From contig JAJPKR010000006.1 in NCBI GenBank assembly GCA_021323595.1, positions 1 to 64,000 on the forward strand: a stretch of 64,000 nt of DNA, in the 5' to 3' direction. Source of the DNA: Terriglobia bacterium. GTDB taxonomy: Bacteria; Acidobacteriota; Terriglobia; Terriglobales; SCQP01. How positions within the stretch are numbered: position 1 is the stretch's first letter; each line of letters opens with the position of its first letter. This document shows, piece by piece, positions 44,406 through 50,028 of this stretch. The notes beneath the pieces were generated by a model that made no database searches, had not been told where the DNA came from, and worked only from the letters and a program-made list of their open reading frames with translations. A program made the translations under genes and the position numbers.

Positions 44406-46154
44406 GTGGTATTGATTACACTCGTGGCCTCGGGTGTGAGCGATTGGCGGCTTCCGCGTAGGGTCTTTCTCGGGCGCCTCGGCGGGGTCATGTGCGGGGT
44501 GATTCCGGCAGCGGTGCGATGGGGAAACGAGTGGCTATTGGCGCCGTTGTCCGGCGGCGGCGTGCCGTTGTTTACGAATGTGGCCCAGGCGGCGGGACTG
44601 AGCCGGTTCCATGACATTTGCGGTTCGCCAAAAAAAGACTACTTGGTCGAGACAGTGGGCAGCGGCGTCGCGATCTTCGACTACGACGGGGACGGGCTGG
44701 CCGACATCCTGCTGATCAGTGGCAGCCGGTTCGATCTTCCCGTTCACCCTCGACTCTCCCCGTTCGCCAGCCGCTTGTTTCACAACAACGGCGACGGAAC
44801 CTTCTCCGATGTCACCGATAAGAGCGGACTCGTGAACACCGGCTGGGGCATGGGGGCCGCGGTGGCCGATTACGATAACGACGGTCGCCCGGACGTTTAC
44901 ATCACCAACTACGGCCGCAATGCGCTGTTTCACAACAATGGCGACGGAACCTTCAGCGATGTGACGGAAGCGGCCGGGGTCGGCGGGGGCAACTGGAGCA
45001 CGGGCTGTGCATGGGGCGACTTCGACGGCGACGGAAGGCTGGACTTGTACGTTGCGCGTTACGTGGACTTCGACCGCCGGCGTATCCCTCCGCCCGGGGC
45101 GGGCGGCTTCTGCCGCTACCTGGGCGTGCCGGTGGCGTGCGGGCCGCGCGGCTTGCCCGGATTGCGAGATCTGCTCTACCACAACGAAGGCAACGGCAAA
45201 TTTCGCGAAGTGGCGTGGGATGCCGGCGTGCGCGATAGCGGCGCGTATGGTTTCAGCGTGGTGTGGTGCGACTTCGACAATGACGGCCGGCCGGACATCT
45301 ACGTCGCGAATGACTCGATGCCGAACTACCTGTGGCACAACGTGGGCGGCCGCTTTGAAGAGATCGGACTCGAAGCAGGGTGCGCACTGAGCGGGGACGG
45401 CCAAGCGCAAGCCTCGATGGGCATTGCTCTGGGCGACTACGACAACGACGGTTGGCTGGACCTCTTCGTCACCAACTTTTCGGAGGATTACAGCACGCTG
45501 TACCGCAACCGCGGCGGGCAATTCGAAGACGTCACGTTCGCGGCGGGCTTGGGCGTGGGCAATAACCGCCTGCTCAAATGGGGCGCCGCGTTTCTCGACA
45601 CCGGCAACTCGGGCTGGAAGGACATTTTCGCGGCCGACGGGCACATCTATCCGCAAGCGGTGCAAGCCGGCAACTCCTATCGGCAGCCCAATCAGCTCTA
45701 TCGCAATCTCCGCAACGGCCGCTTCGAGCTGGCCCGGAGCGCAGAAAGCGGATTCACCGAATGGCGCAGCAGCCGCGGCGCGGCGGTCGGGGACCTGGAA
45801 AATCGCGGCGCGCTCTCGATCGTCGTCAACAACATCGACGACGAACCTTTCTTATATCGGCGGGCCTCCCCGCCGGCCGGACATTGGCTCGAATTGCGGC
45901 TCATCGGCGCCCGCTGCAACCGCGATGCCATCGGCGCGCGCGTGCGGGTGACGGCGGGCGGCCTGACGCAGACGGATTGCGTGTCGAGCGGCGGCAGCTA
46001 TCTCTCCTGCCACGATATCCGCCTGCATTTCGGCTTGGGGCGGGCCGCCGTGGCCGAGACCGTCGAAATTCGTTGGCCCGACAATACCGTGGAGACGCGG
46101 CGCGGTTTGCCGGGGGATCGCGAGCACGTGATCCGCCAGGGCGAGGGGATCTAA
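44406..46154 (+). CDS. Exported CRTAC1-type FG-GAP/VCBS + ASPIC/UnbV protein
   Basis: This encodes up to 582 residues. The start is uncertain: GTG at 44406, 44424 and 44436 are in frame. The last gives a Tat-like signal (LPRRVFLGRLGGVMCG) immediately. Calcium-type FG-GAP repeats recur (FDYDGDGLADI, ADYDNDGRPDVYI, GDFDGDGRLDLYV, CDFDNDGRPDIYV, GDYDNDGWLDLFV), forming a beta-propeller, followed by the ASPIC/UnbV domain (LELRLIGARCNRDAIGARV...SGGSYLSCHDIRLHFGLG) with paired Cys. It is paired with a TPR protein four bases downstream, a combination seen repeatedly in Acidobacteria, Planctomycetes and Verrucomicrobia. An AT-rich patch (44365-44400) upstream probably holds the promoter. Confidence 0.87.
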   Translation: MVLITLVASGVSDWRLPRRVFLGRLGGVMCGVIPAAVRWGNEWLLAPLSGGGVPLFTNVAQAAGLSRFHDICGSPKKDYLVETVGSGVAIFDYDGDGLADILLISGSRFDLPVHPRLSPFASRLFHNNGDGTFSDVTDKSGLVNTGWGMGAAVADYDNDGRPDVYITNYGRNALFHNNGDGTFSDVTEAAGVGGGNWSTGCAWGDFDGDGRLDLYVARYVDFDRRRIPPPGAGGFCRYLGVPVACGPRGLPGLRDLLYHNEGNGKFREVAWDAGVRDSGAYGFSVVWCDFDNDGRPDIYVANDSMPNYLWHNVGGRFEEIGLEAGCALSGDGQAQASMGIALGDYDNDGWLDLFVTNFSEDYSTLYRNRGGQFEDVTFAAGLGVGNNRLLKWGAAFLDTGNSGWKDIFAADGHIYPQAVQAGNSYRQPNQLYRNLRNGRFELARSAESGFTEWRSSRGAAVGDLENRGALSIVVNNIDDEPFLYRRASPPAGHWLELRLIGARCNRDAIGARVRVTAGGLTQTDCVSSGGSYLSCHDIRLHFGLGRAAVAETVEIRWPDNTVETRRGLPGDREHVIRQGEGI

Positions 46155-46157
46155 GCC

Positions 46158-48032
46158 ATGGCGCGGCGCGCATGCCCAAAGCGGACGAGAGCCCAGACGA
46201 GGTCCTGGGTGCTGGCGCTGGCTCTCCTCGCGAGCTGCGCCGCCGGCGGCGGGCGGGCGCTGGCGCAAAGCTCCCGCGCGGGCGGGCCGCCGATTAGCCC
46301 CAAGCTCAGCGCCGCCGCGATGGAAACGACGCTGCAAGCCGTGCAGAGCGCGCGCCGGCGGCTGCAGGCGCACCCCAAGGATGCCGCCGCTTGGCTGAGC
46401 CTGGGCGAGGCGCTGGCGGCCGGGGGCGACGACGCGCAGGCGCAAACGGCGGTTGCAAGGGCATTGGCGCTCGATCCGCGGCTCTGCCGCGGGTGGGAAG
46501 TGGAAGGCCAGTTGGCCGACGCCCGCCAGCAGTGGCCGCTGGCGGCGCAGCAATACCAGCGGGCCGTCCAATGCGAGCCCCGCGCCGCCGCCCCCCGCTT
46601 CTTCTTGGGCGAAGCCCTGCTCCGCCTCGGCGAACTGCAGGCGGCGGAAACGCAATTGCGCGCCGCGCTCGCGGGCGGCCGGAAGCTCTGTTGTTTTTGC
46701 GCCGGCTCGCGGCAGACCCCGGTATGTGGTCCCGCCGCTTTATTCATCGACGTGGGCCTGGCGCAAATTGCGCGTCAATTGGGCGATGAGCGCACGGCGG
46801 CGAAGGAGTTGCGCGCGGCCCTGGCGCTCGATCGCGATGATCCAGAGGCCCTGATCAGCCTCGCTGAGATCGACCTGAGCTCTGGCCGGGCGCAATCGGC
46901 GGCGGCCGGCTTCCGCCAAGCGCTGCGGATCGAGCCGGACTCGGTTGCCGCCTGGAGCGGCTTGGCGGCGGCGCTGCGGCGGGACGGCGAGCCGCAGCAA
47001 TCGGAAGAGGCGTTCCGGCAGGTGCGCGATTTGGTGCGGCGGAATCAAGCGCGGCTTCAAGCCCGGCAGGAGAGCGACGCCGGCCTGCTGCTGTGGCGGC
47101 AAGGCAAGCTCGCGGACGCGGCGGACCGATTTCGCCGGGCGCTGGCGGCGGCGCCGGACGACGCATCCGCGTACAACAACCTCGGCGGCGTGCTGAGCTT
47201 GATGGGCGACCGAGCGGCGGCGGAGCGCGCCTTCGCCGAGGCCATCCACCTGCGGCCCTTCTATCCCATGGCTCGTGACAACTGGGGGCTCGTGCTGCTG
47301 CAAGACGGCAAGGTGGCGGCGGCGATCGAGCAGTTCCAAACCGCGGTTGCCGAAGAACCGGCCTATCCGGCAGCGCATTTGAACCTTGCGGTCGCTCTCG
47401 AACGCAAAGGCGACCTGGCGGGCGCGCAGACGGAACTGCGCCGGGCGCTGGCGCTGGCGCCGGCGATGGCCAAGGCGCACGTCGAACTCGGCCTGCTGCT
47501 CCTCCGGCAACATGGCGCGCTTACGGCGGATGCTCGCGATGAGATCGAAACCGGCCTGCGGCTGGATCCGGCGCTCAAGGATTTGCTTCCACCTCAGGTC
47601 GGGACGCAACTCGCGCCGCGGCGCTCGCGCACCTCTAACGCGAGAGGCCCGGCGCCCGATATAGGCGGGTGGCCGGATGGTAGTGCAGCCAGTCGAACCA
47701 ATCTTCGACCAAGCTCGGGATTCGGGCCAGGCACTCGCCGCGGCGCGGGCCCGCCGTCGCGCAGCCGCGAAAATTCCAGCGGCTGGCGCCGGCATCATCC
47801 ACCAGCGCCCAGGCCGGCGGCGTCGCCGCGGCCGGTTTCGCTTGGGCCGGGGAGCGCGGCTTGGCGCCGGGCGGTTGCTGGCCGGCGGGCGCCGGCGCGG
47901 CCACGGCTCGGAAGAATTCGGGCGCGGCGGGACCCTGCGCGCCCGCGAAGCGCCGCGCGAAGACGCGCACGGTCGTTTGGTCGGGACCGAGGGCGATCAG
48001 CAGGGGCGTGCCGCCGAGCGTGTCCTGGATGA
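46158..48032 (+). CDS. Exported TPR-repeat protein (3' end doubtful)
   Basis: Residues about 15-37 form a signal peptide. From about residue 50 to 490 there are roughly ten tetratricopeptide repeats (for example AAWLSLGEALAAGGDDAQAQTAVARAL, AYNNLGGVLSLMGDRAAAERAF, AHLNLAVALERKGDLAGAQTEL), with a Cys-rich insert (LCCFCAG...PVCG) near 180. The frame stays open to 48032, but after about 47600 the translation turns into Pro/Arg-rich sequence that is simply the antisense of the DUF3179 gene. A TAA in another frame at 47636-47638 overlaps the DUF3179 stop exactly as other convergent pairs here do, so a small frameshift near the end is suspected. It forms a pair with the CRTAC1 gene. Confidence 0.8.
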   Translation: MARRACPKRTRAQTRSWVLALALLASCAAGGGRALAQSSRAGGPPISPKLSAAAMETTLQAVQSARRRLQAHPKDAAAWLSLGEALAAGGDDAQAQTAVARALALDPRLCRGWEVEGQLADARQQWPLAAQQYQRAVQCEPRAAAPRFFLGEALLRLGELQAAETQLRAALAGGRKLCCFCAGSRQTPVCGPAALFIDVGLAQIARQLGDERTAAKELRAALALDRDDPEALISLAEIDLSSGRAQSAAAGFRQALRIEPDSVAAWSGLAAALRRDGEPQQSEEAFRQVRDLVRRNQARLQARQESDAGLLLWRQGKLADAADRFRRALAAAPDDASAYNNLGGVLSLMGDRAAAERAFAEAIHLRPFYPMARDNWGLVLLQDGKVAAAIEQFQTAVAEEPAYPAAHLNLAVALERKGDLAGAQTELRRALALAPAMAKAHVELGLLLLRQHGALTADARDEIETGLRLDPALKDLLPPQVGTQLAPRRSRTSNARGPAPDIGGWPDGSAASRTNLRPSSGFGPGTRRGAGPPSRSRENSSGWRRHHPPAPRPAASPRPVSLGPGSAAWRRAVAGRRAPARPRLGRIRARRDPARPRSAARRRARSFGRDRGRSAGACRRACPG

Positions 48033-48990
48033 CGCCGCGGTTCCGCAGGTCCGCGAGGGGATAGGCGGCGGCTTGGCCGTCGCGCGCGACGCCCACGACG
48101 AGGTCGCGCGGCCGCGGCGAGTTCTTCGGCACGGGCACCACCGCCGGATCCTTGGCTAAACGCTTCTGCCATCCCGCATGGGCGTAGGATTTTTCGTCCG
48201 ACGCAACGGGCGCCAGCACGAGCCCCGCCGGATTCTCCTCGCGCCACAAGCCGAAGGTCGTTTCCTCGCTGCTCAGCAGTTCGAGGCGCGCGCCGCGCAG
48301 CGGGCCGGCGATGGCCGCGCCCGTGACTTGTTGCCACCACGAGCCGGTCTCGCGATCGCGCATCAGGAAATTTTGGTCGTTGATGCCGGCCAAATAGAAG
48401 TGCAGCACGCGCCCGCCGGCCGTTCGCTTCCACACCAGACCGGTGTGGCAGAGCGTTCAATACGTCGCGACGATAGGGACGCCGGCCAATCGATCGTTGA
48501 CGAGATGGTGGTAGGCCATCTCGAGCACGGGATAGGCCTTGGCTTGGCCTCCGAGGCCGACATCGAGGACGATGTCGCCCGGCTTGATCTTGGCTTGGGC
48601 GGCGGGGATGAAGCCGGGATCGGCGACCGGATGGAACAGCCATTCGAAGTAATTAGCGCGCGCCAGCCCGGCGCCTGCCGCCGCCAGTACGATCAGCAGG
48701 CCGAGCGAGCTCCGGCGCAGCCACCGGCGCCGGCCAGCGCCCGGGCTCGCGATCCAAAGGCCGGCGGCGCAGAGGATGACGATCGCCGCTGCCGGCAGCG
48801 CGATCCGCGGGCCGGCGGTTCTCAGCGCGAGGGCGAGCGACAGGGCGCGCGGCGACTGCGCGCGGAAGGGGCGAATGATCCAGATCGGCGCGCCGACCAC
48901 CCAAAGCTCGGCCACGAATGCGGCGGCCAACAAGGCCCAGACCAGCCGCCGGAGCCGAGGCGCGGTAGAAGCGGAACTTGCGACACTCAT
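47635..48990 (-). CDS. DUF3179 membrane protein with in-frame UGA: probable selenoprotein
   Basis: Read through one UGA (48459-48457), this is a single 451-residue frame. Residues about 13-37, 61-80 and 91-110 are membrane helices. Then comes DUF3179: DIVLDVGLGGQAKAYPVLEMAYHHLVND, LAGVPIVATY, the UGA as residue 178, TLCHTGLVW, MRDRETGSWWQQVTG, and a C-terminal FDWLHYHPATRLY. In the family the segment reads TYCxLC; the UGA sits exactly at the first Cys, giving U178-T-L-C181, a UxxC redox motif. The frame and conservation continue after the stop, and a SECIS-like hairpin follows. Annotated naively it splits into 48457-48990 and 47635-48435. DUF3179 function is not known to me. A nonsense mutation or sequencing error is the alternative. 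Confidence 0.85.
48430..48459 (-). promoter_or_regulatory. Putative bacterial SECIS element with Sec UGA codon
   Basis: On the minus strand UGA is at 48459-48457. Eight bases later CCACACC (48448-48442) pairs perfectly with GGTGTGG (48436-48430) around a GGTCT loop (48441-48437). Beyond one G-A mismatch two further pairs can form. The loop begins 15 bases after the UGA. E. coli fdhF has the same arrangement: the UGA, about 17 bases, then a small hairpin whose loop contains GGUC recognised by SelB. Confidence 0.8.
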
Positions 48991-49434
48991 AAGCGCAAGC
49001 TTCTTTCCTTGGCCGATTATGGCTGAGATCGAGATCGCTGAATCCGCCGCCGGCCCGGAGTCGCGTGGCAGCCGCCCGGAGTGGCGTTGCCGGCGATGCG
49101 GCGTGGCGGAGGCGCTCGCGACCTGATGCGCGCGCCTCGCCGCATTCGCCTCGGGGCCGCCGCTCGGGCGTGGATCGAGGGTCGTGGCGGCCCCGCCGCA
49201 TCTCTTCCGGCGGCGGATGAGCGAGTTCGATCATCCGTCTTCCAGCGGCTCTCGTCCATAGTCAGTGCTGATTAGCCAGGGCGGTGTCGAGAGGTTAGCG
49301 GCGAGGCGGCGATTGGGCGGCGACCGAATCCTTTGGTCGCATCACGGCTCCGCTGCATCGAGGTGCGCGGGCCGGCGCCGCGCGGGTCCCCCGTTCGGTC
49401 CCGATGGCGAGGAGCCCAGTGTAGAATCGCCGCT
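48991..49434. other. Non-coding gap upstream of DUF3179 and ankyrin genes
   Basis: This is 444 bases between divergent starts. It is GC-rich and slightly palindromic in places; the open frames across it look like shadows. I find no tRNA, no riboswitch and no insertion-sequence end. A TAGAAT box near its right end (49422-49427) is the likely -10 element of the ankyrin gene, seven bases before its ATG. Confidence 0.55.
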
Positions 49435-49944
49435 ATGCCGAGCGCGGTGCTGCTGGCGCTTTATCGCGGCGATCAAGAACGGGCGCGGCAAATGGCGCAG
49501 GGCCGGTCGCTAGACGTCTTCGAGGCTGCGGCGCTAGGCGATCAGGCGCGGCTGGAGGCGCTCTTGCGGGAAGCGCCGGCGCTGGCCACGGCCTGGAGCG
49601 AAGACGGCTTTACGGCCCTGCACCTCGCCTGCTTTTTCGGCCATCCGGGCTGCGCGCGGAGCTTGATCGCGGGGGGCGCCATGCTCGAGGCCGAGGCGCG
49701 CAACGCGATGCGCGTGCGGCCGCTGCACAGCGCCGTGGCCGGGCGCTGCGCCGAATGCGCCCGCGCCCTTTTGGCCGCCGGAGCCGATCCCAACGCTCGT
49801 CAAGCCGGCGGCTTCACGCCGCTGCACGCGGCGGCGCAAAACGGCGACGGCGAAATCGAGGCGCTTTTGCGGGAGCACGGCGCCGATGCCGCCTTGCGTG
49901 ACGACCGCGGGCGCGACGCCCAGGCCTTCCGCCAGGCCCAATAG
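49435..49944 (+). CDS. Ankyrin-repeat protein
   Basis: This encodes 169 residues from the ATG at 49435. About four ankyrin repeats are visible (LDVFEAAALGDQARLEALLRE, DGFTALHLACFFGHPGCARSLIAGGA, VRPLHSAVAGRCAECARALLAAGADPN, GGFTPLHAAAQNGDGEIEALLREHGAD). It has no signal peptide, so it is probably a cytosolic protein-protein interaction module; the partner is unknown. The upstream TAGAAT box predicts a leaderless transcript. Single short ankyrin proteins of this kind are widespread in Acidobacteria. Confidence 0.87.
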   Translation: MPSAVLLALYRGDQERARQMAQGRSLDVFEAAALGDQARLEALLREAPALATAWSEDGFTALHLACFFGHPGCARSLIAGGAMLEAEARNAMRVRPLHSAVAGRCAECARALLAAGADPNARQAGGFTPLHAAAQNGDGEIEALLREHGADAALRDDRGRDAQAFRQAQ

Positions 49945-50028
49945 CGGCAGCCAATAGATCGCCGGCCGCGGCCGGCGGCGTCAAGACCCCGCGCGGGCCG
50001 CGCGGCTCGCGGCTAGCGGCGCGGCGGC

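Follow-up and report, generated by a model that had tools for sequence, protein, structure and literature searches.

A gene on the minus strand at positions 47635-48990 of the window (the whole 64,000-nucleotide stretch of DNA analysed) is best explained as encoding a probably membrane-anchored selenoprotein of the DUF3179 family, in which UGA codon 178 is read as selenocysteine (Sec). We assign this reading a probability of about 93%, because the UGA lies at a conserved cysteine and precedes a SECIS-type hairpin, and because the source genome carries a complete set of Sec insertion genes. The UGA is thereby very probably decoded as Sec at the active-site position; SelB with Sec-tRNA would decode the codon and translation would run on to the TAG.

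The frame extends from an ATG at 48988-48990 to a TAG at 47635-47637 and specifies 451 residues, the sole interruption being a single TGA at 48457-48459. The read-through product matched DUF3179 (PF11376) across residues 122-441 with 200 bits (E 7.5e-59), above the curated cut-off of 27 bits; this was the only family found by the Pfam search, and no NCBIfam model exceeded its own cut-off with this protein. The TGA is located at the first Cys of the family CxxC, within TY-U-TLC, giving the motif U178-T-L-C181. Across the 50 homologues aligned, this column held either Cys or UGA and never Trp. A further 273 residues are encoded C-terminal to the UGA, and codon-position G+C was the same before (0.71/0.55/0.83) and after (0.73/0.58/0.85) the codon. 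The first-pass annotation had described a DUF3179 frame split by one UGA at this Cys with family conservation continuing beyond it, and both observations were borne out.

The frame would be open under any code giving UGA a residue, and near-cognate read-through, or reassignment of UGA to Trp or Cys, was considered as an alternative to Sec. TGA terminates about 16 of the 36 long ORFs of the window, therefore the genetic code has not been globally changed. Together with the lack of Trp in the column this led us to reject code reassignment, and the UGA genes accompany selA and have a hairpin specific to them (below). Decoding of the UGA by one of these routes is extremely improbable, the least probable of the alternatives considered.

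DUF3179 was detected in 133 of 396 genomes surveyed from the phylum, and each match listed was either free of stops or had a single one, a TGA; TAA and TAG did not occur among them. The 94 loci examined were picked to include UGA loci, and the proportions among them are consequently not an estimate of frequency; TGA was present at the site in 54 and TGC or TGT in 40. The TGA was at the Cys column in 54/54 UGA loci, the same codon as in the window gene. The motifs of these 54 genes were UxxC (34), UxxA (13), UxxT (4), UxxV (1), UxxD (1) and UxxS (1), while those of the 40 Cys genes were CxxC (37) and CxxT (3). The 16 UxxA/V/D/S genes had no other conserved Cys, and the UxxT forms were likewise without any further conserved Cys.

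These homologues bear on the possibility that the UGA is a true stop, leaving either a decayed pseudogene or two ORFs of 177 and 266 residues that are expressed apart. Standard ORF calling yields precisely this split, and other ORFs of the window do end at UGA as a normal stop. Against it, 54 genes from many families share UGA at the same codon with intact conserved sequence downstream, none has TAA or TAG, the hairpin is conserved and covarying and the Sec machinery is complete. Decay after an ordinary stop in near relatives had been named as grounds for abandoning the selenoprotein reading; the UGA is retained in L113 as well as in L114, the closest relatives identified. The pseudogene was rejected on these data and a true stop is considered very improbable.

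The source genome is an Acidobacteriota draft with a completeness of 97.6%, its 65 contigs totalling 3.55 Mb, and its nearest named relatives are also in the Acidobacteriota. The search for Sec genes that had been proposed as a check identified selA (521 bits), selB (346 bits), selD (351.5 bits; L020, G000:C5:39148-40068) and selC, the tRNA-Sec (69.7 bits; anticodon UCA according to ARAGORN), and the four genes by which bacterial selenoprotein synthesis is recognized were accordingly found in one genome. The selD gene has an in-frame TGA of its own (AAGUASKLSP), at what we take to be the known Cys/Sec site of SelD, and SelD is probably itself a selenoprotein. A second DUF3179 copy on another contig (L001, G000:C51:175059-175946) has a single TGA at the codon where the window gene has it (W-U-S-Y-C), with a hairpin of its own downstream. 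As selD and both DUF3179 copies each contain an in-frame TGA, the genome is likely to harbour at least three selenoprotein genes.

A SECIS-type hairpin, CCACACC-GGUCU-GGUGUGG, is situated at 48430-48448 on the minus strand, beginning 8 nt past the UGA, with a loop that opens 15 nt past it. It has a stem of 7 bp and folds alone at -11.0 kcal/mol. A published model of the bacterial SECIS specifies a loop of 3-9 nt with G in its first two positions, a stem of 4-16 bp, a spacing of 16-37 nt and an MFE of -7.5 or lower (PMC13188914). The hairpin agrees with this model, with its spacing at the lower edge: 16 nt given a loop-closing G-U pair, otherwise 15 nt. The hairpin and its GGTCT loop were hence as first described, and the SECIS-like element for which a search had been advised was present. 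An Rfam scan of 46000-50000 found no SECIS family match and one chance miRNA match. The hairpin had also been likened to the E. coli fdhF SECIS in both loop and placement. The first part of the comparison stands, since both have GGUC within a small apical loop shortly past the Sec-UGA; the placement is similar only, the fdhF GGUC loop beginning about 3 nt further from its UGA. Unlike that of fdhF, the hairpin described here is a perfect 7-bp stem with a 5-nt loop and no bulged U.

To control for coding constraint, the SECIS-like score of each gene was compared with those of synonymous recodings of the same gene. The window hairpin alone was unexceptional, 17% of its recodings scoring equally high, and the conserved peptide partly dictates it. 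Its significance comes from comparative data rather than from the window gene by itself. UGA genes had a mean z of 1.34 against their recodings and Cys genes one of 0.16 (Mann-Whitney p 2.7e-10). Among the 18 UGA genes with the peptide TY[U/C]xLCHTG, 15 had CACACCGGUCUGGUGUGG identically, and the remaining three (L063-L065, one group) had lost only the loop-closing pair; in L065 both sides of an inner pair were changed with pairing kept. Cys genes encoding this peptide use different codons (GGG for GGT, TTG or TTA for CTC), and in nine of the ten the stem has lost one or two of its seven pairs. In the sister UGA subfamilies the stem sits five bases further from the UGA and shows compensatory changes in five of the seven pairs; 94.6% of cells pair versus 25-44% in slid controls, and the covariation counts are inflated by related sequences, a relatedness that the slid controls retain. 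Within the window's own subfamily the stem varies too little for covariation to reach significance.

The Sec/Cys state required five changes on a tree of 101 rows, compared with 33.8 when labels were shuffled, and four of the five were forced by well-supported branches. The clade of the window gene comprises 23 UGA and 10 Cys genes, the latter forming one nested group confined to a single family (f2) of the same order. No selA above the cut-off was found in any of the ten genomes of this Cys group; one genome of f2 (G084) has a UGA-type gene together with selA, the one UGA relative in that family. This constitutes a natural experiment, in which an identical peptide occurs with or without Sec and the hairpin is kept or lost to match, beside loss of selA. 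Overall selA was present in 43/46 UGA genomes and 19/34 others (Fisher p 8.6e-5, uncorrected for relatedness). It was not found in two UGA genomes, G046, which has selB, and G317, in which a clear selB is also absent, and a third, 75% complete (G080), yielded a selA fragment only. G317 (locus L035) is 93% complete and has a UGA-type DUF3179 gene; its lack of selA and of a clear selB would reflect missing data or recent loss.

The first-pass annotation did not regard DUF3179 as an established selenoprotein family, and in this it was wrong. The DUF3179 domain-containing protein (PF11376, motif UxxC/T) is tabulated as a bacterial selenoprotein family in two reviews, both of which credit the Olavius algarvensis symbiont study of Zhang and Gladyshev 2007 (PMC9312934, PMC13188914). 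The window gene is an additional member of this known family and not a new family, with the same Pfam assignment and with Sec as the leading residue of the motif. It differs from the family as tabulated in being from the Acidobacteriota and in its three N-terminal membrane helices, predicted here, and its relatives extend the motif to UxxA/V/D/S, forms absent from the tables of both reviews. A literature search that left most subscription journals outside returned no mention of acidobacterial DUF3179 proteins, the UxxA form, the duplication or any resemblance to Rieske domains. As far as was found, the UxxA/V/D/S forms, the tandem duplication with one site and the remote Rieske-type similarity (both below) are apparently new. 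Annotation cuts such genes in two, which makes it easy to overlook a selenoprotein that is widespread among acidobacteria.

The AlphaFold model of the protein (pLDDT 92.6) consists of three long helices followed by a beta domain. The helices, residues 10-38, 47-81 and 87-111 (48658-48963), are predicted to cross the membrane and to anchor the protein. Positive residues precede helix 1 (RLRR) and lie between helices 2 and 3 (RRRWLRR), and by the positive-inside rule the beta domain should face outside the cytoplasm. Profile comparison (99.8%, 123 columns) demonstrated that the DUF3179 domain is a tandem duplication; together with the model it placed the first repeat at about residues 132-262 (48205-48597) and the second at about residues 296-447 (47650-48105). 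The UxxC site is in the first repeat only, the second having no CxxC. The comparison of homologues directs attention, for the function of DUF3179, to a single residue of the first repeat.

With HHalign the second repeat matched a Rieske profile at 75-79%, scoring 32-33 where controls with shuffled columns reached no more than 12.6, and the first repeat gave no match. A sequence search of solved structures returned no relatives. A Foldseek search with the model of the whole protein returned nothing reliable, probably as the membrane helices draw matches. When the beta domain was modelled alone, the PDB matches were repeatedly Rieske-type chains, of NirD type and Rieske ferredoxins (Foldseek probabilities 3c0d 0.98, 3gce 0.92, 4nbc 0.89, 4aiv 0.87; E about 0.1 to 0.7, target TM about 0.5). 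The Rieske [2Fe-2S] ligands CxH...CxxH were absent from the alignment of DUF3179 homologues. The chain matches and the second-repeat profile match are suggestive of a remote similarity to a cluster-free Rieske-type fold, as in NirD, which lacks the cluster ligands; DUF3179 differs from these domains in being tandemly duplicated and in carrying UxxC, and lacks the CxH/CxxH ligands. The domain-only model also matched two uncharacterised giant-virus proteins, BFVD A0A1V0SD44 from Indivirus (E 5.3e-8) and A0A1V0SF28 from Hokovirus (E 2.5e-3).

We consider it reasonably probable that the protein is a redox enzyme working outside the cytoplasm, with Sec178, in the first repeat, as its attacking selenol. 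Cys181 would then resolve Sec178 via a selenenyl-sulfide. Resolution in the UxxA/T subfamilies would need an external thiol, since other conserved Cys are absent there, and the second repeat, its site lost, would probably have a structural role. Gene neighbours lend no support to a redox function, none being conserved: within stretches of 8-14 kb around 20 UGA relatives no conserved partner gene was present beyond close synteny. A selenoprotein in which UxxC is a pair of metal ligands instead of a thiol/selenol redox site would suit a fold that may resemble metal-cluster (Rieske) domains, and CxxC pairs frequently bind metals. In 20 of the 54 UGA genes, though, the second Cys is replaced by Ala, Thr, Val, Asp or Ser, and with no further conserved Cys in those 20 genes the pair is removed as a ligand set; metal binding by this pair is therefore unlikely. 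Returning to redox chemistry, a more tentative picture, which we put forward with less than even confidence, is that DUF3179 has a duplicated Rieske-type fold without a cluster, unrelated to thioredoxin, and that one selenol, carried on a beta-hairpin, performs the chemistry outside the cytoplasm, the UxxA forms working on Sec alone. If true, this would represent an extracytoplasmic selenoenzyme scaffold distinct from that of thioredoxin.

In the window the DUF3179 gene is adjoined by a plus-strand ASPIC/UnbV and FG-GAP protein gene (44406-46154) and then a TPR-protein ORF (46158-48032, plus strand), which overlaps the 3' end of the DUF3179 gene by 398 bases; the final part of this ORF had no TPR match. 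An extra Cys pair, GCA...GxCL, is located in the second repeat at residues 410-420 (47729-47761) and is shared by 16 members of the window's subfamily, those besides the window gene being L113, L114, L077, L081, L086, L110-L112 and L115-L121. It was found in UGA-type and Cys-type genes alike, and might form a disulfide or act as a relay to the first repeat.
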